The translations under genes were made by a program, and so were the position numbers. Source: Aliikangiella coralliicola (lineage in GTDB: Bacteria > Pseudomonadota > Gammaproteobacteria > Enterobacterales > Kangiellaceae). From it: a stretch of DNA of 64,000 bases. Numbering within the stretch: position 1 is the first letter of the stretch; each line of letters starts with the position of its first letter. Shown here one piece after another: positions 33,216 to 60,926 of this stretch. The notes below the pieces were generated by a model. That model saw only the letters and a program-made list of their open reading frames with translations. It had not been told where the DNA came from and did not search any database. The DNA lies in assembly GCF_007004725.1 (NCBI RefSeq), contig NZ_ML660167.1, forward strand, positions 372,001-436,000, written 5' to 3'.

Positions 33216-36200
33216 TTAAACGATTTTCTTCAACAAGGTAACCCCTTGTTTTGTTTCGATGGAATCGTTGGCGATTCGATTGATAATGTCTTCGATTGAT
33301 TCGAAGTTTTTATTTATCTTCGCCTCATGACTCGATCGACTATTCGAGTTTGTCTGGTTAGTTGCCTGATGACTGTTTTGTCTTTCAGTGCCCTGTATTT
33401 CATTGTCTGGTCTCTCACTATCGCGGTTGTAACCTGATTGAGAATTGACAATATGGTCATCTAACCAATATCGCTCTTTGGCAAAGGGATAAGTCGGTAA
33501 ACTGATTCGCTTGGGTTTGCTTTCCCCGCGACGGAGGTCTGCATAAAATTTATTCCAATCCAGTTCCAATCCTTTAACCCACAAGTCTAATAATTTTGAG
33601 TATTTTTTGTGGGCTATCCATTTGTCAACTACGTCTTTCATGTCATCATCCTGGCTGATGATATTAATGCCTTCTTCGTTGCGGTTCACTGTTCCTTGAT
33701 AACAATCGTTGATATTTTGTTCACCGCCGGATTTTTCACCGAGTGTTTTTTCACCGACAATAAAGGCTTGGAGTCTATCGGCCAGTTGCTCAATTGAGCT
33801 TACTATAAATCCTAAGCGTTCCTCCATCGATTGTCTACCCACTTGTAACGTATAAGCTATTTCTTCGAGAATTATTTTTCTTTGTGTCGGATTACTCACA
33901 TGTTGCTTTTGCTGGATAAAGGCGAGTAAATCAACAGATTTTTGTTTAAGTTGCTCTCGAGATTTTGCGGAAAGCAGGATCATCACATTGGTGTTGAGCT
34001 CCCCGGTGTTGCCCACTGAAGCCGCTTGATGAGCAGGCTGAGCAACCGGCGATTGATATTCGGCGATTACCAGGTGCGCATTCGTTCCACTGAATCCAAA
34101 GGAACTAATCGCCGCCTGTCGCTTTGGTGAATGATTAAGTTCCCAAGGCTGTAATCGATCATTAATATAAAACGGGCTATCTTTTAAATGAAGACCTTTT
34201 AAACCTCGATCGCCTTTTGAATTATCTCCTTTTCCAATATGGCCATTGAGTTGCTCAAAGTTAATCGTCGGTGGCAGCTGTTGATGTTTTAATGACAGGA
34301 TAACTTTGATAAAACCAGAAATTCCTGCCGCAAAAAGGCAATGACCGATATTGCTCTTGACCGATCCCAACGCACAGTAGTCAGTGTTTTGAGTATATTT
34401 TTTGAAGGAGTCGCGCAAACCTTCTACTTCAATAGGATCGCCTAACTGAGTACCTGTACCATGTGCCTCAACTAACTGAATGTGTTCAGGGTCAATAGCA
34501 AACTTGTCATAAACTTCCTGCTGCAAACGGGTTTGCGATTTTGGGTTTGGCGCAGTAATTCCGTTGGTTTTGCCATCCTGATTGACGCCCCAGCCCTGTA
34601 TAACCCCTTGAATAATATCCTCGTCTCTTTCGGCGTCGGATAGTCGTTTTAACATGACAACACCGACTCCTTCTCCAGGTACAAACCCATTCGCTTTCTG
34701 ATCGAAAGTGAAGCAGCGCCCCTCAGTGGATAACATACCCGATTGTGAAGTACCAATATGCATCGACGGGCCGGCCAGGACGCAAACACCGCCGGCCAAC
34801 GCAATGTCACTTCCTTTAGAAACTAAGCTGTCACAGGCATTCGCAATCGCAACCAGTGACGAAGAACAAGCGGTATCAATAGATAAACAGGGTCCCTGCA
34901 AATTCAGGAAATAGGAAATGCGCGCGGCTAATATGGAAACGGAGCCGCCCATTCCTTGTGCAAATTGATGGTAGTCACCGGTGCCACAACCGACAAAAAC
35001 ACCACACTTACTACCAGAAAGTGCTTCGGCGTTGTAGCCTGCGTCTTCAATTGTTTGCCAACTGGTCTGTAAAAATAATCGCTGCTGCGGGTCCATATTC
35101 TCCGCTTCTAACGGAGAAATATTGAAAAACAAGGGATCAAACAAATCGTATCCTTCTAACGCCCCCATCCATTTGCAATTGGTTTTCCCGGGGACAATAT
35201 CGCCCGGCTGATAATAGCTATCGATATCCCAGCGCTCTGCCGGCACCTCGCTGATGCAATTTTTACCCGAGGCGATATTTTTCCAAAACTCTTCCAGATT
35301 ATTCGCTTGCGGAAATTGCCCGGCCATACCTATCACAGCAATCGGTTGAGTTTGACTAACCGCAGATTCAGAACTCACGCGTGAGTTGTTTATTCGGACT
35401 GCCGAAGAGTTGCGCCAAGAGGCCAGTTGCTTTGCCGGCAACATGACAGAATTTTTTACTGAAGTCTGAGTGTTACCACTAACAGATTCTGAACAGTGGA
35501 TACCATCACTCGAATTGGTCGCAATGATATCAATATTGTTCGCCTGGTTCGAAGCTTCGCTCTTCACCAGGTTCCCTTCTCGCTCGGCCACCTCATGAAC
35601 ATACTCGCCGAGTTCGGTTAAAGTTGGATAGCTGTATATTTTAGTGCCTTCGATTGAAATTTGATATTCTTCATTGATTTTACGCACCCAACTCACGCCG
35701 ATGATAGAATCCACTCCAAGATTAATAAATGGCGTGTCTTTTCCAATATCCTGCTCCGACATCTGTAACTCTTGGGCTAATAATTTTTTGAGGGTGGCAA
35801 CAATGTCGGGTAGCGTATCTGCTTTCTGCGACATCTCTGTGACAGAAGATAGATCGACCTGGTTAATCTGAGTAGAGCTGATTCCACTGGTTGTAACCTG
35901 ATCTGATGCATTTTTTCTTTCAAGCGAGTTTCTTTCAAGCGAGTTCCTTTCAGGTATAACTTCTTCTGCAGGCACTGTCTCAGAACTTTCAACAACCCTA
36001 TTCTCCTGACTATTGCCTCTTAACTGATCAACTTCTTCCTTTACATATTCACTTAACTCAGACAAAGTCGGGTAGCTATAGATCTTGGTTCCTTCAATGG
36101 AAATGTTGTATTGTTCATTAATTTTACGCACCCAGCTCACACCAATAATCGAGTCGACGCCCAGATTGGTAAACGGCGTGCTTTTTCCAATGTCCTCTTC

Positions 36201-39200
36201 TGACATCTGCAATTCTTGCGCTAACAATTTTTTCAGTGTCGCATTAATACTCGATAATGATTCAGTTGCTGAATTATCGGCCTTGTCATCTTGGGGTTCT
36301 AAGTGAATGTCACTCGCTGGACTTTCCACCTGTTTACTATCAACAACAACTGAACTGGTTCCCTTCGCAAAACTAGTTTGAATTTGCTCGAATGTTTCAG
36401 ATTGACCGACGAAGGTTTTTTCATGCATAGCCAGCTCAAGTTGGAAAGTGTCTTCTAATAAATCATGTAAAGGCTGGTTCCATTGTTGCTTAAGTGAAAT
36501 TAATTGACTGCTTGGGCGTTGCGCGATTTGTTGAGCTAAAACCATTGCCTCCGCAACAACATTTTTCCTTGGTAAAATGCTCACTGACAAACCTTTTTTC
36601 TTTAACTCACGGCCAGAATACTCTTGCGCCGTCAACATGGTATCTCTGGCCAGGTCATAACCGATTTTATTGGGGAAAATCGCGGTTGAACCCGCACCTG
36701 GCGTAAACCCATAATTCATATAAGGACTGACAAAATGACTTTCCTCACTCATCAACGTCAGGTCAGCATACATACCCATGGCCCAACCGGCACCGATGCC
36801 ATGTCCCTGCATTGCTGCAATTACCGGCAAGCGACAAGTCATCGCTAACTGAAAAACTTTTCGATCGGTAAATTTATACTGGCCATCCTGAATCGCCAGT
36901 AAACCTTCTTTGGTTCCACCGGATGAGAAATAACTATCATAGCCAGTAAGAACGACAACTTTGTATTCAGGTGTATTCTCTATGTGCTCGAAAACTTCAA
37001 ACATCCCTTCGATAAAGGCATCAGAAAACATATTTCTGGCTTCTCTGTCTTCCATTCTCACTAACAAAACACCATCAGGATAGATAGAGGCCGAAATCAC
37101 TTTTGAATTTAGAGTCACCTTTTTTTCTTTTTGATTTTTGGCGTCAGAATCGATTTTATTAACAGACCCATTTTTTGTCGAAGACTCTAACTCCTTTTCC
37201 ACTGACCATTCAGGTATATCTATCAGCTTGTTTTTAAGTAAAGCTGAACCTTGCTTTTTCCAGGCCAGCAATTTTGACAAAGGTTGTTCGTTCCATTGTT
37301 GGGCGAGTTCAACTGCAGTTGGCAACACCAAATGATGATCAACCAGATTTAAACTCGCGCACCTTTGTTGCAAATCTTTCCCGGAGTAGTCGGTCGCCGT
37401 CAGAATAATTTCTTTTCCGAGGAAACGCCCGAGTCGATATTCGAAAAGCGAAGCAACTCGCCTGAGAAGGCCAGGTGATTGCCACAATGCTTTAACAGAA
37501 TAACGACCTTCTTGACTATAGACACAGGCATCGCAAATCTGACTAACCATCCAGCCGCTTCCGTTCGAATCGCCTTTAAGCGCCGCGACAACAGGCAGTG
37601 GCGAGTCAACAATAAGCTGCTCTAACGCTTCTAACACTTCCAAATTAGATTTCTCTGTTAGCGGCGGTAAGAAATTATCGTGTTCACTGGAAAGTACCAG
37701 TGATTTGTAACGCTTTGAACGACTAACTTGATTAAAAACATGGCTCAAATCTGAAATCAACAAATCAGATTTCTGCTTCTTCTTTGGCAATTTTTTCTTA
37801 GTTGCTTTCAGATTAATTACGAGGACATTTTTGGCATGCTCTTCCAGTTCAATCAGGTTAGAATTGATTTTTATCTTACTATTCTTCTTCTGACTATTTT
37901 CAGAAGACAAACCAGCATCATTTGTTTGATCAATATCAAGAACTTTAAGTTCATTGACTAAACTGATTAAATGCCGCGATAAATGCTGTTTGAGCAACCT
38001 GAGTGCATTTTGAGATTTGGTTGTCAAGCTGGTGGCAAATTTCTGTGCATAGGTTTCGATCTCGGATGATACAATCACCGCGCATGTCCAACCTTTCGCT
38101 CGCAATGCCTTTCCAGTCAGTTTTGTCTGACCATGTAAAAAATCATTGGTAGCGATTTGTCCAAATCGCTCGCTGAATAAATTCTCATCATTTACCGAAG
38201 GATAAAAACCAGAAGCTACATCAACGAAATTGTAGTTCCCGCTTTCGCTGCAAATCATGAAGTCACACAAGGCTCCCAACATAAAACCGGCGCCTACTGC
38301 ATCACCTTGCATAACCGCAACAACCGGAACAGGAAAGCTGATGACTTCCTGGTAAAGTCCTTCGGCGACCGCGTAGTTATAATCATCTCTTTGTCCATGT
38401 AAGAAACAGGTTTCCGAGCCATTGATTAACAGAACTTTGATGGTGCTCGATAGTTTGGCTGTGCCAATCGCTTGCAATAATTGCTGCACAAGATTTTCCG
38501 TCAGTTGATTATTATCAACATCGTTAATAATTTGAATTGAATAAATTCCATTACCATAATCAAACAAACTAACCGACGCATTATTCAATTCTTCCGAGCC
38601 AGAATCATCCGCCTTCCCAATATCGCTAAAAACAGTATTTGAAAGTCTTACTTGCGGCTCGCTACTGATGTTTTTCTCGCTAACATTTGTCTCTCCGGGA
38701 ACGTCGATGTTAGAACTCTCAGAAAAACATAAAACATCAGAATTCGCCCCATCAATAGAACTGGCCCCATCAATATTTGATAGAGCAATGCTATTCGGCT
38801 TGTTTATTTTAGCCGGAGAAGTTTGTTCAACTTGCGAAGCAGGAACTTTTTCACAATCCAGGTTTTGCAAGCCCGCCAACTTAACTTTAGTTGGCGCTGC
38901 TTTATTAATTTTTACTAATGGCGTGGGTAGCGAAATTTGTTTTGGTGCAGCGCTTGTCTTGCTGCTCTCCGTTGCTTGTACAACTTTTGGCTGCTCTTTC
39001 GAAACGACTTGTTGATAGCTTAACCCGCGGACCTGCATACAAACCTGCCCCGCTGTATCACAAATATCTATATCGAGTTTTAATTGACTATCTTGTGCGC
39101 TCTTTACTTTTGAAAAACGTGACCAGACAAAAACTTTCTCGCTACAAGCAGAAACAAAGCGAATAGATTTGAGCGCAAAAGGCAAACAAGTTTGCGCTTC

Positions 39201-42200
39201 ACTACCAACTAAATCACTTGCCGAAAGTAAAATAACATCGATTAAACTCGGGTGAATAGTAAAGTCAGTTTTGTTCTCCTTGACAGCTTCAGGTAGTTGC
39301 GGAATCAGAACCTCAATCAGTCTCTGATTTTCGTTTTGCTGAAACTGCTGCACAACAAGTTGATTTACTTTGTTCTGATTACCCTTCCAGGCGGCAGTTT
39401 TCATATTTGCCTGAATTGCACTGATATTAACGGCTGGTATATCGCCTTGCTGGACAAAATTAGCATGTCCTTGACAATGAACGATCTCATCAGCATTGCT
39501 TTGGCTGTAAATTTCGAAGTCAACCTGCTCAGGTTGCGTCGCGAACAAGGCAATTGAAACGCTGTTATTTTCGTCAACAACTATCGGCTGTGCCCAAACA
39601 ACATTGTATAATTCTAGATTGTATACTAAGTGCCGCTTTTGTTCCGACTGTTCGCTTTCCTGATAATTCGGTACAGCCAAATCAATTGCAGCTCTGGCCA
39701 TTTCCAGACTAAGCATCGACGGTAAAAACTTTTGCTTATCCGGTAGCGTTTTTAAGAAAAATTCATTGCCATCAAAGCAGGAAGTGTAGCTCTGTTGAGT
39801 CAGATCAGAAGTATTCGTGTGTAGCAATGAATGGAGCACGTCACTAAGACTTGAATTAACAACTTCGCTTCCAGCATTAACTTTGTTTGTTGCAGATTGT
39901 TGGTTGTCCGGTTGAGAGTCACCAGTCTGAGAGACAGAATCGACAACCGGTTCAATCCAATAGCGCTTATTGTCAAAGGGATATGTCGGCAACGGTATTC
40001 GATTAGGCTTGGTTTTAACGCTTCCCTCTGATTGGTAAAGTTTATTCCAATCAAGTTCTAATCCGTTAACCCATAGCTCAAGGAGCTTCGACAGTTTTTG
40101 ACTACTCAGCCATTTTTCAATCACAGTCTCTTTCATTTCATCATCTTGGCTGATAATGCGCATTCCTTCTTTGTTGCGCTCTACCTGCCCTCGATAAGCG
40201 TCATCAATGTTAATAACTGAGTCGTTATCGGAGTTTGAGTCATTAACAAATGCCTCTAGTTTCTCAGTTAACTGGCTGACCGAGTCAACCATAAAACCTA
40301 AGCGCTCTTCCATTGCATCTCGACCAACTTGCAATGTATAAGCGAGATCAACTAACTCAATGGAATGAGATCTTGTGAGTAAGAAGGCTAGTAGCTGTTC
40401 TGCTTTTTGGTAAAGTTGTTTTGAGGTTCTCGCTGAAAGTGGAATAACCAACTTTCCATTCTCTGTTATCGCAGATACATCCGGTTTTGAATCGACCTCA
40501 GGTATATATTCGCCAATCACCATATGGGCATTGGTGCCACTAAAACCGAAAGAACTTATCGCAGCTTGACGTTGTTCTTTCTCATCGACATCCCAGGCTT
40601 TTAAACGCGTATTAACAAAAAACGGCGTCCCTTTTAAACCTTTCGATTGACTACCAATATGTTCGTTTAACTGCTCGAAGTTTGTCGTCGGCGGAAGTTG
40701 TTTGTGTTTAAGCGCCAGTGCAATTTTTATTACACCGGAAACACCGGCGGCAGTCAGGCAATGACCGATGTTACTTTTCACTGAGCCTATCGCGCAATAA
40801 TCGGTTTTGCGAGTAAACTTTTTAAAGGATTCCTTCAGCCCGTCAATTTCAATTGGGTCGCCAAGTTTAGTTCCGGTGCCGTGGGCTTCAATTAATTGGA
40901 TGCTAGCCGGATCTATCTGGTGCTTTTCGTAAACATCTTGAAGTAGCTGCCGCTGAGCTTCCGGATTTGGCGCGGTTATTCCATTAGTTTTACCATCCTG
41001 ATTAACACCCCATCCTTTAATCACTCCCTGAATAATATCTTGATCTTTCTCTGCGTCTTTTAAACGCTTTAACATCACAACACCGACACCTTCCCCAGGT
41101 ACAAAGCCATTGGCGCGTTGATCGAAAGTAAAGCAGCGACCATCAGGTGAAAGCATTCCCGTTTGCGAGGTTTTAATCAGCATTTCAGGCCCTGACATAA
41201 CATAAACGCCGCCGGCCAATGCCAAATCACTACCACCAGCGCTTAAGCTGTCACAGGCATTGGCAATCGCAACTAAAGAGGAAGAACACGCTGTATCAAT
41301 TGATAAACAAGGCCCTTGTAAATTGAGAAAATAGGAAACTCGTGCCGCCAGAATAGATGTCGCTTCCCCGGTAAAACCCTGTGCGCTGATTTGTTGTTGT
41401 CTTGACAATAAATGGTAGTCGCCCGCAGCACAACCAACAAACACGCCACACTTAGTACCGGACAATGATTGCGCGCTATAACCGGCATTCTCAATTCCGC
41501 GCCAACAAGTTTGTAAAAATACCCGTTGTTGCGGATCCATACTCTTGGCTTCTTTCGGCGAAATGTTAAAGAACAGAGGATCGAACAGGTCAAACTCTTC
41601 TAACGCGCCCATCCATTGGCTGTTAGTTTTTCCGGGCATCGCGTCTCCCGGTTGGTAATAAGCATTAATATCCCAACGATTTGCTGGAATTTTATCAATA
41701 CAGTTTTTGCTTTGGGCAATATTATCCCAAAAAGAATCCAGATCTTTTGCCTTAGGAAATTGCCCAGCCATTCCAATGATTGCAATGTGCTGGGACTTCA
41801 CTGAAAGCCGTTGTTTGTTTTGACTTTTCGTTAATTTTTTTCTGCGCCTGGATACCAGGTTTTTGACTGCCGCTGCGATGGGTCTCAATGAGTTGGTTGT
41901 GTTCAACTCAGTGGCAATATTACTTGATTTGTTTGAGTCGTTAGTTTGACTTGTTCTTTGCACCGGCTGACTTTGAGAAACCTCGTTTAATACCGGTGGA
42001 GTTTCGCGAGGCGAATCATCGATTAATATACCCGCTTCACTTGCTTGCGCCTGGACATAATCACTCAATTGCTTTAACGTCGGATAACTGTAAACTTTAG
42101 TCGCCTCTATCGACGTCTTGTACTTATCATTAATCTTTCTTACCCAGGTAACGCCGGTAATCGAATCCAATCCAAGTTCTACAAACTGAGCATCCTCGTC

Positions 42201-45200
42201 AATTTCTTCAACCTGTAATCGTAACTCTTGTGCCAATAGCTTTTTTAGCGTTTCGTTTATTGAAGTTAACAGGTTACTCTTGTTTATTTCTGGCTTGGGT
42301 AACTTTTCTGATTGCAGTGTCTTTTCTGATTGGAGTAACTTTTCTGCTTCAGATTTTACTGCCTTTACATTTTTCGCTGACACATTTTTCGTTGACACAG
42401 TAACTTTGTCGACATTTTCAGCCAACTTATTATTTATCACCTCTACATCGACAGCATTCGAAGTCTCAGCGATAGCTTCAACTTCCTGCTTAACATATCG
42501 GCTAAGCTGTTTCAGCGTCGGGTAACTATATACTTTAGTCGCTTCGATCGCTGTGCCATACTTTTCATTGACCTTTCTAATCCAGGTGACGCCGGTAATG
42601 GAGTCTAGCCCCAAGTCAACAAATTGCTCATCTTCTTCAATTTCATCGGTTTGCAACCGTAACTCTTCTGCCAACAGTTTTTTAAGAGAAGTCATTAATT
42701 CAACTTCATTGATCGCAACAGCATAAGTTTGTTCGTCAATTGGCGAATGCTGCAAATCTGCGACTTTCTCATTCTCGGCGTTTGTATTCGAACCAGCAGA
42801 AAATTTATCTTGAATCTGCGCTAATGTTTCAGATTGGCCAACGAAAGTCTTTTCATGCATTGACAGTTCAAGTTGATAGATTTCATCTAACTGGCTTTGT
42901 AAACTAACCGTCAGTAGACTTTTAAGCGCGACTAGCTCAGCGCGAGAATGCCTGGCTATTCTTTCGGCCAAACTCATCGCCGCAGACAAGACGTTCTTTC
43001 TTGGTAAAACAGAGAATGATACGCCTCTATCCAGTAAAAGAGTCCCGCTGGTTTCTAGCGCAGTAAGCAATGTTTCTCGTGCCAGATCATAACCAATTTT
43101 TTCAGGAAAAATTAAGGTAGAACCAGCCCCTGGTGTAAACCCGTAATTCATGTAGGGACTCATATACTGGCTTTCTTCACTAAATATTGTGAAGTCTGCA
43201 AACATCCCCAAAGCCCATCCAGCCCCAACGCCATGGCCTTGCATCGCCGCGACTACCGGCAACGAACATTTCAACGCAAGTTGATAAATTTTGCTATCGG
43301 TAAATTTAACTTTACCTTCTTGAATTGCAACCAATGTTTCTTTGGTGCCGCCCATTGCAAAATAATTATCATAGCCGGTTAAAACCACCACCTTGTATGA
43401 CGGTGTTGCCTCGATATGAGAAAAAACTTCGATCATTCCTTCGGCCAGCTCATCCGAAAACATATTCTTCGCCTGGCGATCTTCCATAGTTACTTGCAAA
43501 ATACCTTGTGGGTAAACCTGCGCAGAGATCACTTTCGAATTAAGCGATAAAGGCATCGGCGAATCAGGTAACGCAATTGGCTCTTTGCCCTTTTCTTCCT
43601 TAATTTGCAATGTGTCATGTAAATCTGCCAAGACCTGTTGAATACGCAACGAATCCCGTTTTTTACGTTCGATAAGAACTGGACGTGGTTGTAAAGACCA
43701 GTTTCGTGCAACTTGTAAAGCTTCAACGGCCACTTGGTTTGGTTGTGCTATTTTTACCGATGGTAATTTTTGCTGTAAATCGACGCCGGAATATTCACCG
43801 CCAGCGAATAAAATTTCTGTGCCAAGTTGGTTGCCCAAACGACAAGTAACGATAGCTGCTGCGTGGTTTAACCATTCTGCCCGTTCTTTAATACTGTCAA
43901 TCGTATAACAACCTTGTGCATGATAAATACAAGTATTGCAGAACAAACTCATTAGCCAGGCCACACCTTGCACGTTTGAATTTAGCGCGGCGACTACCGG
44001 AATATCCGAAGCGAGAATGAGTTGGCTAAAAGCGGTTACGACTGCGTTAAACTCATTAGATTCGACCGCTGGAAGAAATTCGGGATATTCACTCTCTATC
44101 ACAACGGCCTTGTAAATTGCGCTTTGTTTAAGCTGGCCAAAAATCTCCTCAAGCTCGTCAATTAACGCTCTGATGTCGAGAGAAATATCGTCGTGCTTAA
44201 GACTGATAACAAGAATACTATCCGCCTCCGTTCTTAACTGAATCATTTCAGTTCGGGAGTTTGGCTCGGTGGTATTGTTATTTTTTTGTTTAACCGATTC
44301 GATATCATTCGAAGGTTCAACAATTTCAAGGTTATCGGCCAGAACGCTTAAGTGACGAGCCAAGTGCTGTTTTAACAATTTTAATGCGGGTTGTGATTTC
44401 TCAGCTAATGTAGAAGTAAGTTTTTGAGCATATGGGTTAATTTCGTCCTTCGGCAGAACGGGACATGTCAAACCTAGCAATCTCAGTTCTCGACCATTGA
44501 GCCCGTCGATTGAATCAAGTAGTTCACTAGTTATTGACTCGCCAAAGCGTTTGGCGAGTAAATCCGCCTCGTTTTTTGACGGGTATAAACCAGCTTGAGT
44601 ACCACAGTATTGATAGCTTGCTTCTTCACTAACAATCATAAAGTCGCATAAAGCAGCGGCTAAAAAACCTGCTCCTGACGCATTGCCCTGAAGAACAGCA
44701 ACAACAGGATAAGGAAAGGAAATAATATTTTGATAAAGCCGGTGCTGCAAGGCTTCGTTGCTATGTTGCCTGCCGCCATGTAGAAAATGTTTTTCGGTAC
44801 CCTTCAATAATAAAACTTTTGCGTCTTCGGCCTGCTTAACAATCTCGAAAGCTTCAGTCAGCAACTCAATCACAGTTAACTCAAGCAGGTTATTACTACC
44901 GTTCTCATCCTTGCCTTCTCCTACTTGAATTGAATAAATCCCATTTCCCAGGTTAAATAAATTGACTGGGCTCGCTAACACTGTCGCCTTTTGTGTAGAC
45001 CTATGGGTATTGACTTTTTCTCGCTGTAAATCAGCTAACTCTGACTCAGTTGCTTCTAACCCCATTAATTCTAAGTTCTGATTTTGAAAATCCACTAAAC
45101 CAATTGAAGGCCGCTCTTTGCTTTCGTAGTAAGACTCTTTGTTAGTGTAAAAATCAATTGGCGCTAAAGTAATATCTTGAGGTTTTTTCTGAGTTCCTCG

Positions 45201-50141: not shown

Positions 50142-50182
50142 GGTTATTCTCCTAACAATCCGTTAGTAACGTATTTAACATG

Positions 50183-50415: not shown

Positions 50416-50463
50416 AATATTTATTTTTGATATTTGCTCTTGTCTAACTTTAAAACAGAATTT

Positions 50464-53400
50464 CTAAGCCAGATTTTTTAACAATTTGACTGCTTGATTA
50501 GTTTCAATCGAATCATCATCAACCTTGTTAATGATGTTTTCGATAGACTCAAGATTTTTAACAACCCTTAACTTATCAGGCTTAGTTGCTGTCTCAATAT
50601 TCTGCTCCTTAGCAGAGACATCGATCCAGCACCGCTCTTTGGCAAAGGGGTAAGTCGGCAAACTAACTCGTCGTACTCTCTGAGCCGAAGGAACATTGGC
50701 AGGATCATCATTCGACAACTGGTGCTGTTCATCATTTGCAAAGTTTGCCCGATAGCCTTGTTGAGTCAGCTCGGCAGTATTGATGTGCAATAACGGATGT
50801 AGAACATTATTCAAATGTTCCGTGCTATTACTGGAATTCTCGGCAGTAGCGTGAGTTGCAACAACATCTTTTTCAAGCCAATAACGTTCCCTGGCAAAAG
50901 GATAAGTTGGTAAATTAATTCGTTGGGGTTTCAATTTTCCATAGAGTTTATTCCAATCCAGATCTAAACCTTTTACCCATAAATCTAACAGTTTCGATAG
51001 CTTACGACTGCTCATCCAGTTTTGAATAATCGCATTTTTCATATCATCATCTTGACTGATAATACGCATACTTTCTTTATTGCCTCTAACTTGACCACGG
51101 AAAGCATCCTCGATGTTTTCGACACCCTCATCTTTTCCACTACTAACAAAAACTTCTAGCTTTTCGATTAAATGCTCAATCGAATTAACCATGAAACCGA
51201 CTCTTTCTTCCATTGGCTCCCTGCCAACTTGCAAAGTGTAAGCGACTTCACTTAATTGAATAGATGCTTTTTGCTTGGAAATGAACTGTAGTAAGTTGCC
51301 GGCAATTTGGAATAACTGTTCTTCATTTCTTGCCGATAATGGAATCATGAGTTTGCCATTTTCGTTGATGCTATCAACCGCTTTCTTAACAACCTGGTTA
51401 TTTACAATCCCTGATGAGGAATATTCGGCGATAACCATGTGAGCGTTAGTCCCACTAAAGCCAAATGAGCTAATAGCCGCTTGTCGTCTTTCATCTTTAC
51501 TAACTTCCCACGGCTGTAATTTATCGTTGATGTAAAATGGACTATTATCCAAACCTATATGTTCATTCACCTTTTCAAAATTAATGGTTGGCGGAAGTTG
51601 TTTGTGTTTCATTGCTAAAATAAGTTTAATCAACCCGGCAACCGCGGCTGCCGTCAGGCAATGACCAATATTGCTTTTCACCGAGCCGAGTGCACAATAG
51701 TCTTTCTTATCGGTGTATTTTTTAAAGGATTCTTTTAATCCAGCAACTTCAATCGGGTCACCAAGTTTTGTTCCCGTGCCATGGGCTTCGATTAACTGAA
51801 TGTTAGCCGGATCGATTTTAAATTTGTCGTAAACTTCCTGTTGCAAACGTGTTTGAGAGTCAGCGTTGGGTGCTGTAATACCATTGGTCTTACCGTCTTG
51901 ATTAACGCCCCAGCCCTTGATGACACCTTGAATAATATCTTGATCTCTTTCGGCATCAGCGAGCCTTTTTAACATCACTACACCAACACCTTCACCGGGA
52001 ACAAAACCATTGGCACGCTGATCGAAAGCGAAACAACGACCATCGGTTGACAGCATTCCAGCTTGTGAAGATTTAATGTGCATATCAGGGCCCGCCATTA
52101 CATACACACCGCCGGCAAGTGCTAAATCGCTACCGGCAGAATTCAAGCTATCACACGCATTTGCTATAGCGACTAACGAAGAAGAGCAAGCCGTGTCAAT
52201 TGATAAACAAGGCCCTTGCAAATTTAAAAAATAAGAAATACGAGCTCCCAGGATCGAAGCAGCTCCACCGGTAAAGCCTTGGGCGCTGATCTGTTGCTCA
52301 CGAGATAACAAGTTATAATCGCCCGCCGCACAGCCAACAAAGACACCACACCGACTACCAGAAAGCGCTTGAGCGTTATAACCCGCGTCTTCAATAGTAT
52401 GCCAGCACGCCTGCAAAAACACGCGCTGTTGCGGCTCCATGGTTTCTGCTTCTGTGGGCGAAATAGTGAAAAATAAGGGATCAAATAAATCGTATCCGTC
52501 CATTGCACCAACCCATTGACTATTCGTTTTTCCTGGTGTCGGTGCCCCCTCTTGATAGTAAGTATCTAAATCCCAGCGCTGCGAAGGTATTGATGTGATG
52601 CAGTTTTTGGCCGAAGCAATATTATCCCAAAACTCATCCAGATCATTAGCCTGAGGAAATTGTCCGGCCATACCGATAACCGCAATTGGCTGCGTGTGAT
52701 CCTGCGTTCGAGATTCTGCACGTAACTTTGAGTTGTTTTTTCGCCAGGATATTAATTGCGTATAAGTTGACTCAACATCGAACTGTTGGACGTTTGGTAT
52801 TTCCGTGCGCGTTGGCGGTAAGCCCTTGACCTGCGCGTCACTATTGCGACCAACTTGTGCAACAGTTTCCGGCGCAATTTCTGCCGACAAGTCATCAGTA
52901 ATTTGCTGCGTTTTCACTGACTCTGTTTGTACAAATGTACTGAACTCTTTGAGCGTGGGATAACTATAAACTCGAGTCGCTTCAATCGACAGCTGGTATT
53001 TATCATTGATTTTACGTACCCAGGTTACTCCGGTAATGGAATCTAAGCCCAGGTCAACAAATTGCGCGTCTTCATCAATTTCAGTTGTTGACATATGTAG
53101 CTCATCCGCCAATAACTTTTTAAGTGTCGTTGTAACCTGCGATGAATTTATGTTGACTGAATTTATTTCAATTGTTTTTTCATCGGCTGCTTCAGCAACT
53201 TGACTGTCCTGAGCAACGTTAGAGATAGCGGCTTCCGTATGAACACTTTTAGCAACTGTAACGGTAGGCGCCGCAGTACGACTTTGAGTTTGAATTTCTG
53301 ACTGACTAGATGAATCAGCCTGCGCATCAATTTCTGTTTTAACAAACTTTGCAAACTCGGTCAGCGTCGGAAAACTATAGACTTTTGTCGCCTCGATTGT

Positions 53401-56400
53401 TGTCTGATATTTGTCATTAATTTTACGCACCCAGGTGACGCCGGTAATAGAGTCTAACCCCAGATCAACGAATTGAGCGTCTTCTTCGGCCTCGGCAACG
53501 TCCATATGTAATTCATCGGCCAATAACTTTTTAATGGCAGCAGTGATCATGGAGACTGTTAACGAGGAATTTTTATTAACAGTATTAGCGGTTGACGTCA
53601 GATTGACGGCTTTCTCTTCAACAGCTCTTGCTGTAGCAGTTGCTGAAAGTTGAGGAACATCGTCTCGAGAAGCTATCTGGTCGAAAAAATTTTTCTGAAT
53701 TTGTTTAAGCGTGTTTGATTCACCGACAAAGGTTTCATCATGCATGGCCAACTCAAGTGCGCAGGTATCTTGCAATGGTTGATGCAAATGGTAAGTCCAC
53801 TGATGTTTTAGTGCCATCAATTGGCTTTGCGAATAGCGAGCAATCTGTCTGGCCAAATCAATCGCTGTTGAAAGCACTTTTTGTCTTGGCAGAACAGATA
53901 ATTGCAAGCCTTTGGTTTGTAGCGCTTTACCTTCATACTCTCTGGCAGTGAGTAAACTCTCTCTGGCCAGGTCATAACCCATTCTAAGGGGTGATATAAA
54001 AGTTGCCGCTGCACCAGGTGTAAATCCATAGTTCATATACGGACTCACATAATGGCTTTCTTCGCTTAACAGAACAAAATCTGCAAATAGGCCTAAGGCA
54101 AATCCCGCACCAATTCCGTGCCCCTGCATCGCCGCGATTACCGGCAACCGACATTTCATTGCCAACTGAAAGGTTTGTGTGTCGGTAAACTTCGATTTGC
54201 CCTGTTGAATATCAAGCAAACTTTCCTTAGTTCCTCCAGAAGAAAAATAACTATCATAGCCGGTCAAAACAATGACTTTATAATCTGGTGACTGATCGAT
54301 ATGTGCAAATACCTCATTCATCCCTTCGACCAAAGCATCAGAAAACATATTCTTTGCCTTTCGATCTTCCATTTTCACCACCAGAATTCCTTCTGGATGG
54401 GTCGTCGCAGAAACTACGGAAGATTGAAGTTCGACGAGTGTCGGTTTATCGACTGGCGATGTCTTTTTGAGTCCAGTATTCAATTCATGACTAAGCGGAA
54501 TTTGCTTAATTTTTTCTTGAATAATCTGGTTGGAGCGTTTTTTCTTCGCGGTAAGAAACGATAGTGAATTCTGTGACCAGCGTCCTGCTAATTCTAAAGC
54601 CTGTTCAATAACCTGTTTTTTATCAACGATTATCTGATGAGTATGCCTCTGCTTTAACTCAACGCCAGAGTAATTGCTCTGAGCTAACAAAAGATTTCTG
54701 GCCGAATAATCTCCGAAGCGGTGAGACAAAAGAACCTCGGCCTTCGTTAAAAAGTCAACGCTATGTTCGTTACTTGCAAATGAATACTTCCCTTTATCGT
54801 GATAAATTATCCCATCACAAAGTTGAGCAACAGCCATTGCTAACGCACTCGCATTTGCCTCAAACGCTACAATCACCGGAGTCGCTATACTTAACAGCAG
54901 CGTCTGAAAATCATTCAATAATTGACCCTGCTTGTCTTTTTCGGCTTGAGGTAAAAACTCAGCATGCTCGCTCGCGAGTATGACCGCTTTGTAGTGAACA
55001 TTTTGATTAACTTGAGAAAATATTTTGCTCAAATATCCAATCAAAGAAGCGGTGCTAAATTTCTTCTTGGATTGTAGGATCCTGACGATCAGAATATTGT
55101 CGTTATGGGTGCTCAGCCGAATATATTTCACCGGGGACGCAATTGCTGATTTTTGCTTGGCTGTTGTTTTATCAGATTCGGATTGAAGCTTTTCTAACTC
55201 CTGGCTAACCGGCGTTAGTTCTGCGACCAATTCAATTAAATTCCTCGCTAAATGTAACTTTAATAGCTTCAACGCCTGTTGCGGCTTTTCCGCAAGTTCT
55301 TGTGCAAGCTTGTCGGCTTTAAGATCAACATCCACTTTGGGAGTGATCAAACAAGACCAGCCATTCGCGCGCAATTGCGTACCCTGGATTGATTCTTTGC
55401 CATCCAGCAGTTCTTCAGCAGCCATCATGTCAAATCGTTCGACCAGTAACTTTTGTTCAGCGGCGCTCGGAAAAGAATGGGTGTCAAAGTCAGCATATTG
55501 ATAACTGGCTTCCTCACTACATATCATAAAATCGCACAATGCACCTACGAGAAAACCAACTTTCGTTGCGCTACCTTTCATCACTGCAATAACTGGATAA
55601 GGAAACTCCACTAATTTTTGATAAAGTTTTTGTTCGATCGCACTATTGTGAGATTGTTGCTCTCCACTCAAAAAATAATCATCGGTACCTTTCAGTAACA
55701 GAATCTTGATTTGGCTTTCCTGCTGTGCAATTTCTAGCGCAGATTTCAATTCGCTAATTGCTCTTTCCGATAACACGACGTTGCCATCAGCGACCTGGTT
55801 AATTTTGATGGTATAAATTCCATTTCCGTTGTTGTATAAGTTGACCATAGCTTGCGAACTGTTCATTTCGCCTTGTGTACTGCCTGCTTTATTGTCTGAG
55901 AAAACAGCGTTCGATAAAGTAATCGATTCACTCATTGCAAGTCGATTAACAGTTGGCGATTTTTCAATAAAGTTTGAACTATCAGTCACTAATTTACTTG
56001 CCGACGTCAATGTAATACCTTGCGGTTTCTCCGTTTGGATTTGAACTATTTCACTATGAATTTCTGTTAATTCAATTTTTTTGGAAAGGCTGTTATCAAT
56101 TACATTTTTGCTAGCACCAATACCAATATCGACAAGACTGTTTGCTTCCGCCGTTTTTTTATTAGATTCCGACTCATCATCTACAACAGGTAGATTTTGT
56201 CGCGGCTGAACTGCTTGTCTACTTATCGCATATTCAGCGCCTTTAACCTGAATACAAACATTGCCATGCTCGTCGCACCAGTCAATATCCAGCTTTGCAT
56301 TCGCGCTACCTTGTTCATTTGAAAAACGTATCCAGGCGAACATCTTTTTAGCACCTGGAAAAATGATCCGAATGGAAGATAAGCTTAATGGCAGTAAAGT

Positions 56401-59400
56401 AAGACCCGCGGATTGACTACCCTCAGTTAAACTCAACAGGGCTTGTAGCATAGCGTCTAACCAGTTGGGATGTAAAACGTAATCCGTGGTAAGACGATCA
56501 TTGTCGCCTATAGTTAACTCCGCAAGTAGCTGGTTATTTCCAGCGTAAATTGAAGTGAGGTTTCGGTTAAATAAGTTGGGCAAGCCTGGTGAATTAGTAT
56601 TCGTTTTTTCTAGCTGTTTTTTCAAAAATATTAGATCGAGCTTTGTCGGCGCAGGATTCCGGCTCAATACTCCGTGCCCCTGACAGTGAACAACATCTTG
56701 TTCTTGATTATAAATTTCAAAGTCAATTTGCTCCTTGTCTTTAGCCAGTAACGCAATTGATACGCTGCGACTTTCCTCCACGACAATAGGCTGCGCCCAG
56801 ACTATATCATGTAATTCCAGCACAAATGCTTCAGAATCTGGCATTGCATTTTCAATCGCCGCTCTGGCCATTTCGATATAAACAGATGTGGGCAACACTT
56901 TCTGGTTACTTTGATGTCTGATGGAGAAATCTGATTGAAAGAAAAATTCTTTGCCGCTAAAACTTGTTTGGTAGCTTTGCTGAAATAAATCGGAAGTATT
57001 AGTGTGAAGTACAGGGTGAATCGGTTTAATACCACCCTGTATCAACGAGTTGCTATCGCCGGAGATTGCCTGTCCTGAAACAATCTGCGCTGAAACTTCC
57101 AATGGATCTATCCAGTACTTATCTTGAGCAAATGGATAAGTCGGCAAACTAATCAATTGTGGCTGGATTCCTTGACTGAAATCTTGTTCATAAAGCTTAT
57201 TCCAATCTAGTGCTAAGCCTTTAACCCATAAATCTAATAATTTTGTTAATTTTCGATCAGTAATCCATTTATCAAGGGTCCGTTGCATATCATTGTCGCT
57301 GCTAAATAGCGACAGCGTTTCTCTATGATCTTTAACTTTACCTAGGTAAAGATCTTCAATGTCCTCTGCGCCAGAAATAAAAGCGTTGAGTTTTTCAGAA
57401 AGCTCTGTCAATGAACTGACTATCAGTCCAAGTCGCTCGCCCATTGCTTCCCTGCCTACTTGTAATGTGTAAGCCATCCCATGTAAATCTATTGAAGATT
57501 CATTGCATTCAATGAAACCGATTAACTCGCTACATTTTTGTCGAAGCTGGGCTTCTGTTCTTGCCGACAAAACTATCACTTTAGTTGGCCAGGAATCATC
57601 TTGCCGGCGTTTAATCGTTTGATTATTGAGTACCGAGTGTTCTTGTTCTGAGTATTCTTCAATAATGATATGAGCATTGGAACCACCGGCACCAAATGAT
57701 GAAACGCCTGCGATTCTTGAAACTTGCCGACCATCAATTACTGGCGGTTGCCACGCTTTTAATGTCTGGTTGACAATAAACGGTGTGTTATCAAAATCAA
57801 TATGAGGATTGAGCTTAGCGGAATGTAAAGATGGCACGATTTTCTGATGTTTCATCTGCAACAACACTTTTGTTACACCTGCCACACCAGCGGCAGATTC
57901 ACAGTGACCGACATTCGACTTTGCAGAACCGATCAAACAAAAACCGAACTCTTCAGTTTCGCTGGATGAGTTTTGGTTAAACGCTTTAGTTAGCGCAGCG
58001 ATTTCAATTGGGTCACCTAACTTGGTGCCGGTTCCATGGGCTTCAATGTAACTGATGTGACGAGAATCAATTTCTGCTTCTGCGAGCGCGCGGGTAATTG
58101 CGTTGGCTTGAGCACCGGGATTAGGTACGCTGTAACCGTTAGTTTTACCACCGTGATTTAGTGCACTACCTTTAATAACACCATAAATGTGATTACCATC
58201 TTGTTCGGCTTGTGACAGTCTTTTCAGAATGACTGCGCCGACACCTTCGCCAGGAATGTAACCATCACCGCCTTCACCAAAACTTTGGCAATGCCCTGCA
58301 CTGGAAATAAATTGTTCAGCACTTAGCATCTGGTATTTTCCCGGGTGAATGCTGACATTGACCCCACCGGCAATTGCTAAATCAGTTCGCCCTAGTTTGA
58401 GATCCTGACAAGCCAGATGAATGGCCGTTAACGACGAAGAACACATCGTATCCAACGTCATGCTCGGACCATGTAAATTTAATACGTACGAAACTCGATT
58501 AGCAATGCTGGCTAAGCTACCCGACACACTATATTCACCATACATGACGCCCACATAAACGCCCACCTGACCCGGCGCGTCTTCCTGATGAGGTATTTGT
58601 AAAGTGGTTCGTGTGTAACCTGCATCTTCAACGGCCATCCAGGCGTGTTGTAAAAACAATCTCTCTTGCGGGTCAATTGACTTGGCTTCCCGTGGAGATA
58701 TGTTGAAAAAACGCGAATCGAATTCGTCAACACCAACAATAAAACCGCCCCACTTACTAAAGTGTTTTCCTTTCTGAGCACGGTCTTCACTGTAGTATTG
58801 TTGCCAATCCCATCGTTCTTGCGGTACTTCTACAATACAATCTTTCCCGTCGCGAAGATTTTGCCAATAGGCTTCAATATTTGGCGCTTCCGGGTAACGA
58901 CCACTTAATCCGATGATAGCAATCGGCGCTGTTTTTTCTGCGCCGAATGCGTTCGAAATCTGAGTCTGACCTAATGCTGTTTTATTCGACAGAGTTGGCG
59001 ATTGACTTTGTTTTGCATAACGACGCCCCAACTTTGATTTATTTATTTTGTTAGTCAGGCTTTGCAATTTTGCGGGGAATTTTTTCAATTCATTCGTTGG
59101 TGTGTTAACTTGATTAATGTCGACAATCGGCGTAATAAATAGAGACTCCACCTTGGCCAAATGTGATCGCACAAAGTATTGAGCTAACTCAGCAATGGTT
59201 TGATATTCAAAAAATAAAGTCTTCGGTAACGAGCCAAATGCCTTTTCCAGCTGACTCGTCAAGTTCATCGCCATTATCGAGTCAATACCATATTTCTCCA
59301 ATGGCGCCTGAGCATCTATTTTATGTGATGGGAGTTTTAATAATTTCGAAAACTGTTTGCATAAATACCCTTCTGTACTTTCCTGAAAGTTTTGTTGGGA

Positions 59401-60924
59401 ATACTTAGCTGAAGGAGCATGTGAAACAACTTCGTTGTCTAATTGAGTCGTTACGTTTGCTATTTCATCTTTTGAAGAGACTTGCTGAAGGCTCGTGTTT
59501 TCCAATAACGCTACACGCAATTTTTGTATATTACCTTCAGTCACCGAAAACTGGCTATAGGGTAACTGCAAGCCGCGATAAAAAGCACCTAGTCCACTCG
59601 CGGTTTCTAGTTGTACTGCACCGGTATTCTGTTCAATCTGACTCAGCATCGATGGCTCAATCTCCATGCCGCCTTCTCGCCATAATGACCAGTTGACTGA
59701 AAGACTTTTCCCCTGTCTGTCACCTTGCGCCACTAATTGATTGCGATAAGCTGAAAACTGGTCCATAAAACCATTGGCAGCTGCATAATCCGATTGACCA
59801 ACATTGCCGAGCCAGGAAGCTGCTGATGAAAATAAGACAAAAAAGTCCAACGCTAAATCACGGCTCGCCTGGTCAAGATGATAAGTGCCCAATACCTTAG
59901 GCGCTAAAACCTGACGAAATTCTTCAGATGACTTCTTGATGATAAAGTTATCCGCGGTCATTCCCGAGCAATGAATAATCCCTTTGAGTGAGGCCTCTGG
60001 CGTATTTATCGAAGCGATGAGTGATTCAACCTGACTCTGGTTTTCAATATCTAACTGGCGGTATTCTACCCGGCTTTCAGATTGTGTATTTAGCGCCGAG
60101 AAATCGTCCAGAATAGATTGCTTTTCAGCTGTTAGCGGTGACCGTCCTGTCACAATGATTTTTCCGTGACGGGTTTGTTGTAGAATTTCCCGGGTCATTA
60201 ACTTGCCCAGACCACCTAAGCCGCCGGTAATCAGGTAAGTGCCACTGTCCTTAAAAGCAGTCTCTTTCAAAGCTGTCTCTTTAACTTCAGTTTTTTCTGT
60301 CGCTTTAACTTCTTGCCAGTGTAAGAACTTTCGCTCGTTTTGCTGATAACGGATTAAGGTTTCCTGTGGGTAGTTTCCAGCATCTTGTAATTGTTGGGTA
60401 AGCTTCTCGGCAGAATCGACAACATCAGTGAAAACAACCTGTGCAATCAGTTGAGGGTTTTCTAACATGGCGGTTTTGAGCAGACCGGATAACCCCGACA
60501 ACATTGTCATTTGCCCATTATCAGCGGCGACAACTTGAAACAGCACCGGGCCTTTTGGGCGGCTTTTTAGAATGCTTTGAATCTGTTCAAAACAACTCAG
60601 TGCCAGCTCGCTGTAGTCGGCTGCAATATCTTTATTGCTCTGAACAACTGAGACAACTTGACTGGCCGGCAAGTCAGACTTTAACTGCGGCCTATTCAGT
60701 TTTGGCAGATGGCATAACAACACACAATGTTGCTCAACGTTGAACATCAGGGAATTGGACACGACTGAAGCATCCTCTTCCCAAACCGGTGTTGCCAGCA
60801 ATATACCCGAAGCGTTTTTCTGCTTGAGTTTAATCGCTTTGATTTTTTCCAACGCTTGCTGTTGAGTTAGTTTACCTTGAGACAAATCACGATATATATT
60901 TTTTAAATCATTCATCTGTTCCAT
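50464..60924 (-). CDS. Trans-AT PKS protein, KR-ACP-KS-DH0-ECH3-ACP2-KS with DH remnant
   Basis: About 3486 residues (the ACP, KS and linker residue numbers given here count from the GTG at 60927). Docking helices (1-37) are followed by: KR (about 40-490, ITGGLGGLG, DYAAANGF); ACP Ser550; KS Cys829 (DTMCSSS); DH0 (about 1300-1570, His lost, Asp kept in LDAMLQ); three ECH-fold domains (about 1690-1905, 1930-2130, 2165-2410); Trp-flagged ACPs Ser2493 and Ser2630; KS Cys2914; a truncated DH start; a second KS-tail motif (RVSLPTYPFAKERCW); and a docking tail (about 3455-3486). The GTG at 60927 overlaps the TAG of the upstream gene, but the adjacent ATG at 60924 is the likelier start. Either way translation is coupled. 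KR-ACP completes the KS-DH that ends the upstream protein. Confidence 0.93.
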   Translation of the reverse strand: MEQMNDLKNIYRDLSQGKLTQQQALEKIKAIKLKQKNASGILLATPVWEEDASVVSNSLMFNVEQHCVLLCHLPKLNRPQLKSDLPASQVVSVVQSNKDIAADYSELALSCFEQIQSILKSRPKGPVLFQVVAADNGQMTMLSGLSGLLKTAMLENPQLIAQVVFTDVVDSAEKLTQQLQDAGNYPQETLIRYQQNERKFLHWQEVKATEKTEVKETALKETAFKDSGTYLITGGLGGLGKLMTREILQQTRHGKIIVTGRSPLTAEKQSILDDFSALNTQSESRVEYRQLDIENQSQVESLIASINTPEASLKGIIHCSGMTADNFIIKKSSEEFRQVLAPKVLGTYHLDQASRDLALDFFVLFSSAASWLGNVGQSDYAAANGFMDQFSAYRNQLVAQGDRQGKSLSVNWSLWREGGMEIEPSMLSQIEQNTGAVQLETASGLGAFYRGLQLPYSQFSVTEGNIQKLRVALLENTSLQQVSSKDEIANVTTQLDNEVVSHAPSAKYSQQNFQESTEGYLCKQFSKLLKLPSHKIDAQAPLEKYGIDSIMAMNLTSQLEKAFGSLPKTLFFEYQTIAELAQYFVRSHLAKVESLFITPIVDINQVNTPTNELKKFPAKLQSLTNKINKSKLGRRYAKQSQSPTLSNKTALGQTQISNAFGAEKTAPIAIIGLSGRYPEAPNIEAYWQNLRDGKDCIVEVPQERWDWQQYYSEDRAQKGKHFSKWGGFIVGVDEFDSRFFNISPREAKSIDPQERLFLQHAWMAVEDAGYTRTTLQIPHQEDAPGQVGVYVGVMYGEYSVSGSLASIANRVSYVLNLHGPSMTLDTMCSSSLTAIHLACQDLKLGRTDLAIAGGVNVSIHPGKYQMLSAEQFISSAGHCQSFGEGGDGYIPGEGVGAVILKRLSQAEQDGNHIYGVIKGSALNHGGKTNGYSVPNPGAQANAITRALAEAEIDSRHISYIEAHGTGTKLGDPIEIAALTKAFNQNSSSETEEFGFCLIGSAKSNVGHCESAAGVAGVTKVLLQMKHQKIVPSLHSAKLNPHIDFDNTPFIVNQTLKAWQPPVIDGRQVSRIAGVSSFGAGGSNAHIIIEEYSEQEHSVLNNQTIKRRQDDSWPTKVIVLSARTEAQLRQKCSELIGFIECNESSIDLHGMAYTLQVGREAMGERLGLIVSSLTELSEKLNAFISGAEDIEDLYLGKVKDHRETLSLFSSDNDMQRTLDKWITDRKLTKLLDLWVKGLALDWNKLYEQDFSQGIQPQLISLPTYPFAQDKYWIDPLEVSAQIVSGQAISGDSNSLIQGGIKPIHPVLHTNTSDLFQQSYQTSFSGKEFFFQSDFSIRHQSNQKVLPTSVYIEMARAAIENAMPDSEAFVLELHDIVWAQPIVVEESRSVSIALLAKDKEQIDFEIYNQEQDVVHCQGHGVLSRNPAPTKLDLIFLKKQLEKTNTNSPGLPNLFNRNLTSIYAGNNQLLAELTIGDNDRLTTDYVLHPNWLDAMLQALLSLTEGSQSAGLTLLPLSLSSIRIIFPGAKKMFAWIRFSNEQGSANAKLDIDWCDEHGNVCIQVKGAEYAISRQAVQPRQNLPVVDDESESNKKTAEANSLVDIGIGASKNVIDNSLSKKIELTEIHSEIVQIQTEKPQGITLTSASKLVTDSSNFIEKSPTVNRLAMSESITLSNAVFSDNKAGSTQGEMNSSQAMVNLYNNGNGIYTIKINQVADGNVVLSERAISELKSALEIAQQESQIKILLLKGTDDYFLSGEQQSHNSAIEQKLYQKLVEFPYPVIAVMKGSATKVGFLVGALCDFMICSEEASYQYADFDTHSFPSAAEQKLLVERFDMMAAEELLDGKESIQGTQLRANGWSCLITPKVDVDLKADKLAQELAEKPQQALKLLKLHLARNLIELVAELTPVSQELEKLQSESDKTTAKQKSAIASPVKYIRLSTHNDNILIVRILQSKKKFSTASLIGYLSKIFSQVNQNVHYKAVILASEHAEFLPQAEKDKQGQLLNDFQTLLLSIATPVIVAFEANASALAMAVAQLCDGIIYHDKGKYSFASNEHSVDFLTKAEVLLSHRFGDYSARNLLLAQSNYSGVELKQRHTHQIIVDKKQVIEQALELAGRWSQNSLSFLTAKKKRSNQIIQEKIKQIPLSHELNTGLKKTSPVDKPTLVELQSSVVSATTHPEGILVVKMEDRKAKNMFSDALVEGMNEVFAHIDQSPDYKVIVLTGYDSYFSSGGTKESLLDIQQGKSKFTDTQTFQLAMKCRLPVIAAMQGHGIGAGFALGLFADFVLLSEESHYVSPYMNYGFTPGAAATFISPLRMGYDLARESLLTAREYEGKALQTKGLQLSVLPRQKVLSTAIDLARQIARYSQSQLMALKHQWTYHLHQPLQDTCALELAMHDETFVGESNTLKQIQKNFFDQIASRDDVPQLSATATARAVEEKAVNLTSTANTVNKNSSLTVSMITAAIKKLLADELHMDVAEAEEDAQFVDLGLDSITGVTWVRKINDKYQTTIEATKVYSFPTLTEFAKFVKTEIDAQADSSSQSEIQTQSRTAAPTVTVAKSVHTEAAISNVAQDSQVAEAADEKTIEINSVNINSSQVTTTLKKLLADELHMSTTEIDEDAQFVDLGLDSITGVTWVRKINDKYQLSIEATRVYSYPTLKEFSTFVQTESVKTQQITDDLSAEIAPETVAQVGRNSDAQVKGLPPTRTEIPNVQQFDVESTYTQLISWRKNNSKLRAESRTQDHTQPIAVIGMAGQFPQANDLDEFWDNIASAKNCITSIPSQRWDLDTYYQEGAPTPGKTNSQWVGAMDGYDLFDPLFFTISPTEAETMEPQQRVFLQACWHTIEDAGYNAQALSGSRCGVFVGCAAGDYNLLSREQQISAQGFTGGAASILGARISYFLNLQGPCLSIDTACSSSLVAIANACDSLNSAGSDLALAGGVYVMAGPDMHIKSSQAGMLSTDGRCFAFDQRANGFVPGEGVGVVMLKRLADAERDQDIIQGVIKGWGVNQDGKTNGITAPNADSQTRLQQEVYDKFKIDPANIQLIEAHGTGTKLGDPIEVAGLKESFKKYTDKKDYCALGSVKSNIGHCLTAAAVAGLIKLILAMKHKQLPPTINFEKVNEHIGLDNSPFYINDKLQPWEVSKDERRQAAISSFGFSGTNAHMVIAEYSSSGIVNNQVVKKAVDSINENGKLMIPLSARNEEQLFQIAGNLLQFISKQKASIQLSEVAYTLQVGREPMEERVGFMVNSIEHLIEKLEVFVSSGKDEGVENIEDAFRGQVRGNKESMRIISQDDDMKNAIIQNWMSSRKLSKLLDLWVKGLDLDWNKLYGKLKPQRINLPTYPFARERYWLEKDVVATHATAENSSNSTEHLNNVLHPLLHINTAELTQQGYRANFANDEQHQLSNDDPANVPSAQRVRRVSLPTYPFAKERCWIDVSAKEQNIETATKPDKLRVVKNLESIENIINKVDDDSIETNQAVKLLKNLA
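50615..50935 (-). other. DH remnant between two copies of the KS-tail linker
   Basis: After the last KS the usual tail (LPTYPFARERYW, near 50870-50935) leads into about 30 residues of a DH start (LHPLLHINTAELTQQ, near 50710-50810). This breaks off and is followed by a second KS tail (VSLPTYPFAKERCW, near 50615-50690) and the docking segment. It reads as a deletion/recombination scar that removed a DH. Confidence 0.75.
52925..55850 (-). other. ECH-ECH-ECH-ACP-ACP beta-branching cassette 1
   Basis: ECH-a (about 55850-55210, GSATKVGF, altered glycines), ECH-b (55130-54530, ANASALAMA, degenerate), ECH-c (54420-53690, GHGIGAGF and NYGFTPGAA, PksI-like), then ACPs with DSITGVTW at 53449-53451 and 53038-53040 (Ser codons). 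Only ECH-c looks clearly catalytic. Confidence 0.8.
59157..60924 (-). repeat. Near-identical long repeat, copy in the 3486-residue PKS gene
   Basis: Partner of 48383-50141. It covers the docking helices, KR and first ACP. Differences include short in-frame insertions (for example extra KETA-type codons near 60260-60300) and scattered substitutions. The ACP-KS linker just downstream (58950-59150) is not conserved between the two genes. Confidence 0.85.
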
Positions 60925-60926
60925 CA

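Follow-up and report, generated by a model that had tools for sequence, protein, structure and literature searches.

Reiterated triplets of crotonase-fold (ECH) domains, ECHa, ECHb and ECHc, are built into the polyketide synthase (PKS) modules of Aliikangiella coralliicola, and each triplet is probably a covalent pseudo-trimer with a single active site, that of ECHc, which carries out β-branch decarboxylation in cis. We base this assignment on what the domains are, which catalytic residues they keep, the selection acting on them, their distribution and a predicted packing of high confidence. A sequence-only reading of the same DNA had left three options for the triplet, namely a scaffold, a pseudo-trimer or a new branch-processing device; of these, the pseudo-trimer fits best, with a pTM of 0.89 for the AlphaFold2 model of the triplet and with the ECH2 family as the nearest one to each of the three domains.

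Triplet modules and the free β-branching cassette

The window analysed here is a stretch of 64,000 nucleotides from the 7.04-Mb source genome, and all of its genes described below lie on the minus strand. The list of open reading frames and Pfam ECH_1 define two PKS proteins with triplets in the window: protein C (5641 aa, 33216..50141), with the order KR-ACP-KS-DH-ECHa-ECHb-ECHc-ACP-ACP-KS-DH-ECHa-ECHb-ECHc-ACP-ACP-KS, and protein B (3487 aa, 50464..60927), with the order KR-ACP-KS-DH-ECHa-ECHb-ECHc-ACP-ACP-KS, in both of which every DH is degenerate. ECH_1 matches three stretches per half of protein C (whole-protein E-values of 3e-84 and 2.6e-88 for the halves) and three in protein B (1.5e-81), bearing out the nine crotonase-fold domains in three triplets on two PKS proteins that the sequence-only reading had described. 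For the assembly line, three triplets is an under-count: a fourth is found shortly beyond the end of the window (L009:1460-3610), in the PKS/NRPS protein A (7058 aa), which is the next protein upstream of protein B, has its 3' part in the window (60927..64000) and extends in full over 60927-82103 in window numbering.

In triplet C1, ECHa (44256..44975), ECHb (43545..44255) and a PksI-like ECHc that keeps the catalytic His (42798..43544) are preceded by a degenerate DH (45375..46241) and followed by tandem ACPs (42057..42713). The second triplet of protein C, C2, has the same elements at 37860..38579 (ECHa), 37113..37859 (ECHb), 36369..37112 (ECHc), 38991..39833 (DH) and 35601..36263 (ACPs). 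Protein B carries triplet B1, with a non-catalytic ECH2 paralogue as ECHa (55135..55854), a degenerate one as ECHb (54430..55134) and, judged by sequence, a PksI-like decarboxylase as ECHc (53683..54429), between a degenerate DH (56224..57018) and tandem ACPs (52933..53562). The four triplets can be aligned end to end, the other three whole triplets being 45-48% identical to C1, a likeness far beyond chance. That they are recent local copies only is rejected by this level of identity and by the triplets found in other phyla. Separately, the KR-ACP starts of proteins B and C (59156-60906 and 48382-50123) share 90% DNA identity over 1.77 kb, and the remaining matching stretches of the two genes share 73-80%, a difference that points to a recent duplication or gene conversion of this N-terminal block alone.

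HxxxGxxxxP is the catalytic motif of DH domains, in which a His is expected, and this His is absent from the DH of all four triplet modules. Each module runs from KS through DH, ECHa, ECHb and ECHc to the ACPs, with no KR in between, and another KS follows the ACPs both in the window modules and in protein A. Behind the four triplets stand 2, 2, 2 and 3 ACPs, the three belonging to protein A, and the motif GxDSx5W is present in all nine; the Trp-flagged tandem ACPs noted earlier after each window triplet are confirmed, with the Trp six residues past the active Ser in 6/6. A fifth β-branching module, in PKS protein D (4671 aa, 18939..32954), has tandem Trp-flagged ACPs (about 26094-26720) and a degenerate DH and contains no ECH domain, so that one assembly line holds β-branching modules both with and without a triplet. 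This ECH-free module is a natural control for the role of the triplet.

The cluster also encodes a full HMG-synthase cassette. It consists of an HMG-CoA synthase homologue (12020..13279), a free ECH1 dehydratase of the PRK07112 family (11244..12032; 413.5 bits in NCBIfam), a free ECH2 decarboxylase of the PRK07110/PksI family (10410..11195; 396.7 bits in NCBIfam), a decarboxylating KS-like protein (5715..6995; PRK07103, 622 bits in NCBIfam), in which the active-site Cys is replaced by Ser in the motif GGASASG as read by eye, and a free 79-aa ACP (6982..7221), a probable donor ACP by its motif only (GANSIDR, read by eye). A trans-acting acyltransferase of the FabD family (4368..5567) and a second acyltransferase-like protein (3350..4336) lie close by.

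A PvcA/DIT1-type isocyanide synthase homologue (9122-10117; PF05141, 2e-82) stands beside a TauD-type Fe/2OG oxygenase (8325-9125) inside this trans-AT PKS cluster, and the product may therefore bear an isocyanide-derived group. For an MBL-fold hydrolase (13492-14214), SolJ of solanimycin is the top NCBIfam match, with 263 bits that do not reach the cut-off of 350. Much of the 144 kb around the window (352001-496000 of the contig) is taken up by long reading frames on one strand, about 600 to 7058 aa in length; outside the window and protein A, judged on their first 40 residues, they look NRPS/PKS-like, with MATE-like transporters between them.

Catalytic residues, ancestry and selection of the three domains

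As judged from its sequence, ECHc is a PksI/CurF-type ECH2 decarboxylase, and ECHa and ECHb are crotonase-fold paralogues within the same ECH2 family that lack the catalytic His. ECHc matches PksI (4q1g) at 2.2e-73, and the best matches of ECHa, near 1e-19, are CurF ECH2 and PksI. ECHb is the weakest crotonase domain of the three and ECHa is also weaker than ECHc; the ECHb of C1 taken alone scores 24.5 bits in Pfam, under the cut-off of 27. Among the nine window domains, seven were scanned against NCBIfam (all three of C1, and ECHa and ECHb of C2 and B1), and the ECH2 model PRK07110 was the top match for all seven, with C1 scores of 120 bits for ECHa, 70 for ECHb and 290 for ECHc, the only one to pass the cut-off of 215. 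We rejected ECHa or ECHb as an embedded ECH1, the best model being that of ECH2. Profile comparison to ECHc with hhalign gave probabilities of 99.92% for ECHa and 99.82% for ECHb, which place both in the crotonase fold, as the sequence-only reading had assumed, and exclude non-crotonase domains.

Active-site positions were taken from the available text of the PksI paper (PMC7501309) and placed by hand on the ECHc-PksI alignment. Residues were counted over 34 triplets, three from the window and 31 from 30 loci, in an alignment without the fourth triplet of the source genome and without L046, a near twin of L020. The equivalents of PksI His230 (catalytic), Phe81, Phe136 and Phe234 are kept in all 34 ECHc domains, and the Lys80 position holds K in 27, R in 5 and Q in 2, a variation that agrees with the finding, given in that text, that Lys80 of PksI is dispensable (PMC7501309). 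The catalytic His is found in none of the 34 ECHa or 34 ECHb domains, the C-terminal alignment of both being uncertain and the columns read there holding no His in either. ECHa also lacks the KFTD loop. It retains the Gly preceding the PksI Gly66 equivalent in 34/34, the Gly66 equivalent itself in 18/34, the Gly following the Gly108 equivalent in 33/34 and a strongly kept FPYP...ALCDFM core, and with this part of the oxyanion-hole sequence ECHa may do more than hold structure. In ECHb the corresponding glycines before Gly66 and after Gly108 remain in 3/34 (hhalign register) and 18/34, respectively. Mean pairwise identity is 44% for ECHa, 33% for ECHb and 61% for ECHc. The earlier descriptions of ECHc as PksI-like and intact and of ECHb as degenerate hold, and that of ECHa as variable is fair.

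A quickly made tree of 140 domains, in which ECHb and the first domains from Nostoc and Ensifer have long branches, and with the free ECH1 left out because its match was too short, places ECHb in one clade (SH-aLRT 100), groups ECHc with free ECH2 (SH-aLRT 97) and sets ECHa on one side with weak support (SH-aLRT 51). Planctomycetota doublets made of ECHa and ECHc nest among the triplets, next to a Verrucomicrobia triplet, in the ECHa and ECHc parts alike, and ECHb was therefore probably lost there. In the 14 closest pairs, which are not independent and include some saturated dS values, dN/dS spans 0.09-0.46 in ECHa, 0.11-0.51 in ECHb and 0.04-0.25 in ECHc, which is lowest in every pair. ECHa and ECHb are thus under purifying selection and are maintained though dead.

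Distribution and published relatives

Scanning one genome per species across 84,980 species yielded 32 loci, located by two peptide patterns taken from the query itself, from which no frequency among all PKSs is derivable. At least one complete triplet is present in 30 of these loci, in Bacteroidota, Pseudomonadota, Myxococcota, Acidobacteriota and Verrucomicrobiota. ECHa-ECHc doublets occur in two Planctomycetota loci (L035 and L036), on one Nostoc plasmid and on one Ensifer plasmid. Two Lysobacteraceae loci (L042, L043) have a triplet module and, on the protein that follows, an ECHa-ECHc module that resembles a doublet and is truncated where the locus stops; a similar arrangement in L041 is a tentative reading.

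Counted by module, the 32 loci hold 37 triplets, a tally that takes in the window, L009 and two triplets truncated at a locus edge; after 33 of them come ACPs and then a KS, and in the other four the reading frame or locus stops behind the ACPs. Among the 63 post-triplet ACPs, the flag position holds W in 43, F in 18 and another residue in 2, both odd readings. Phe-flagged ACPs follow triplets in L014, L015, L022, L025, L026 and L029-L031. Three triplets apiece, partly cut, are present in Fulvivirga marina, F. kasyanovii, Flavobacteriaceae RhTr2, Aquimarina atlantica and Aquimarina AU58. Modules with a triplet are widespread and often reiterated, and the idea of a device peculiar to this cluster is not supported, also in view of the two-domain version already in print for lasonolide in the available text of PMC9600693. 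Among named matches, a Kangiellaceae MAG (L020) is the nearest; its triplet and the locus of L046, from a genome of the same genus as the source genome, score almost alike. Whole-genome searches found a strong match to the ECHa-ECHb part (E below 1e-100) in three of 99 relatives, the source genome included, and a match at E <= 1e-40 in one of 398 genomes of the phylum, the source genome itself.

In lasonolide biosynthesis, according to the available text, LasH and LasO contain ECH pairs in which the first domain is truncated and proposed to be inactive and the second is an ECH2 (PMC9600693). The likeness to our modules is drawn from that description and not from the las sequences: a non-catalytic ECH precedes a live ECH2, Trp-flagged ACPs adjoin and a free HMG-synthase cassette is present. 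The difference is that lasonolide has two ECH domains and all four triplets here have three. In novelty, the triplet extends this known 'truncated ECH + ECH2' doublet and is not a new category. OnnB of onnamide likewise has a β-branching crotonase in cis, in that case an ECH1 fused into the PKS and not an ECH2-family triplet (PMC10006238, available part), and the accessible portion of the palmerolide paper gives cis-ECH in several systems (PMC8739492).

The part of PMC9860996 available to us assigns Aq78, Aq349, EL33 and RHTr2 to one trans-AT cluster family, that of cuniculene. Since Aquimarina sp. Aq78 (L028) and Flavobacteriaceae RhTr2 (L024, L029 and L030) have triplet loci, the pathway of this known product probably contains triplets, provided that, as we infer, the contigs belong to that cluster. 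The sequence-only reading had asked whether the triplet was already described in a characterised pathway; it is probably part of the cuniculene synthase, and the answer may be a partial yes. Among the available texts and the matches listed in a text search of the literature, for which subscription papers lie mostly outside the scope, none describes an ECH triplet, and 'ECH-ECH-ECH' gave no match.

Packing, mechanism and alternatives

AlphaFold2 places the three domains of the triplet confidently against one another, and in a natural doublet without ECHb (pTM 0.87) ECHa and ECHc are also confidently placed. The pTM speaks only to relative placement, and the closed three-fold ring is a proposed geometry. 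Among PDB chains, none of the best 60 of 129 matches fits the triplet profile in more than one stretch, and the best 50 matches in each of three structure searches were only chains taken to hold one crotonase domain. Seven matches listed in two of the structure searches align with ECHa and extend as far as the C terminus of ECHc, two of them at 2.5-2.6 Å (4elw_F, 205 residues aligned; 3sll_A, 235 aligned) and the other five at 5.1-7.7 Å. Read from the first and last aligned residues, these alignments hint at a C-terminal helix shared across the trimer interface.

CurF of the curacin pathway has its ECH2 as a single embedded domain, and ECHc here is the third domain of a fused triplet; the CurF case suggests that a symmetry mismatch is tolerated elsewhere. 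If the ECHa-ECHc doublets work, a full trimer in each chain is likewise not strictly needed. PksI of bacillaene is a free homotrimer, and ECHc here is fused behind two non-catalytic paralogues. The available text reports CurF ECH2 and PksI as homotrimers, the former a trimer in crystals, and PksI and PksH as trimers in which every subunit has its own peripheral active site (PMC7501309); chemically, a single live subunit in the trimer would thus be enough. The same text reports that PksH and PksI do not form mixed trimers (PMC7501309), although the domains of the triplet here all come from one family.

We favour the covalent pseudo-trimer. In this scheme, the triplet would have arisen by three-fold tandem expansion of a PksI/CurF-type ECH2 decarboxylase domain, with ECHc retaining the sole working active site and ECHa and ECHb occupying the structural places of the other two subunits of the ancestral homotrimer, whose missing surfaces they most likely supply. 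The KS of a triplet module would extend the chain and, with no KR acting and the DH dead, the β-ketone would be left on the ACPs that bear the Trp flag. From the free cassette, the donor ACP, KS-like decarboxylase, HMG synthase and ECH1 would then add and dehydrate the acetate branch, ECHc would decarboxylate it in cis to a β-methyl or exo-methylene branch, and the next KS would take the β-branched chain. A single-chain trimer would let a three-fold enzyme sit in a two-fold symmetric PKS without subunits from other chains. The closed ring, the reaction in A. coralliicola, the type of branch and this symmetry argument are inferred; as the cluster also encodes a free ECH2, ECHc is a probable and not a demonstrated decarboxylase of the branch.

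A possible but doubtful alternative is that ECHa, perhaps with ECHb, forms a second functional device, one that would keep hold of the acyl-ACP with its branch, gate it, or direct the double bond towards exo or endo, while ECHc decarboxylates; it is compatible with the pseudo-trimer and not opposed to it. The nearly invariant glycines of ECHa before the Gly66 and after the Gly108 equivalents, its conserved core and the purifying selection all favour such a role, which has to be set against the missing general-acid/base His and KFTD loop and a Gly66 equivalent in only about half of the domains. Published cases point both ways in their available texts: exo-methylene formation commonly goes together with an ECH2 that has a truncated ECH upstream of it (PMC9600693), and the aurantinin PKS is redirected by Art21, an ECH2 homologue whose catalytic His is changed to Gln (PMC11425284), but for the lasonolide pair an endo-methyl is predicted in the same paper, and the link to exo-methylene is not strict (PMC9600693). 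The triplet-free module of protein D together with the free ECH2 means that two routes may give different branches.

It is unlikely that ECHa and ECHb are beads on a string that serve the cassette enzymes as separate spacers or docking sites, with ECHc homotrimerising between PKS chains. The homotrimers of CurF ECH2 and PksI (PMC7501309, available text) and the strong divergence of ECHb would suit this arrangement, but the confident models of both triplet and doublet indicate a fixed relative placement. Finally, that ECHa and ECHb are decaying, functionless relics of duplication is very improbable and is rejected on dN/dS: catalytic residues are lost in ECHb and the domain is missing from the nested Planctomycetota doublets, but all 14 pairs show constraint and the a-b-c order is the same in 30/32 loci of five phyla, each free of internal stops.

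In our view, the triplet bears on two matters in the trans-AT PKS field, namely how trimeric β-branching enzymes work inside dimeric modules and what purpose the 'inactive' upstream ECH domains serve. As a self-contained, expressible unit of ~720 aa, the triplet would allow both to be tested, and in PKS engineering the module type could be transplanted as one block. On the most far-reaching reading, for which the odds are about even, an obligate homotrimer has become a natural single-chain hetero-trimer of two dead subunits and one live one, fit to work inside a two-fold assembly line, and the dead ones, ECHa foremost, may further choose between exo and endo or select the ACP. With four triplet blocks in one line, A. 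coralliicola is predicted to make a product that bears at least four, and probably five, β-branches.
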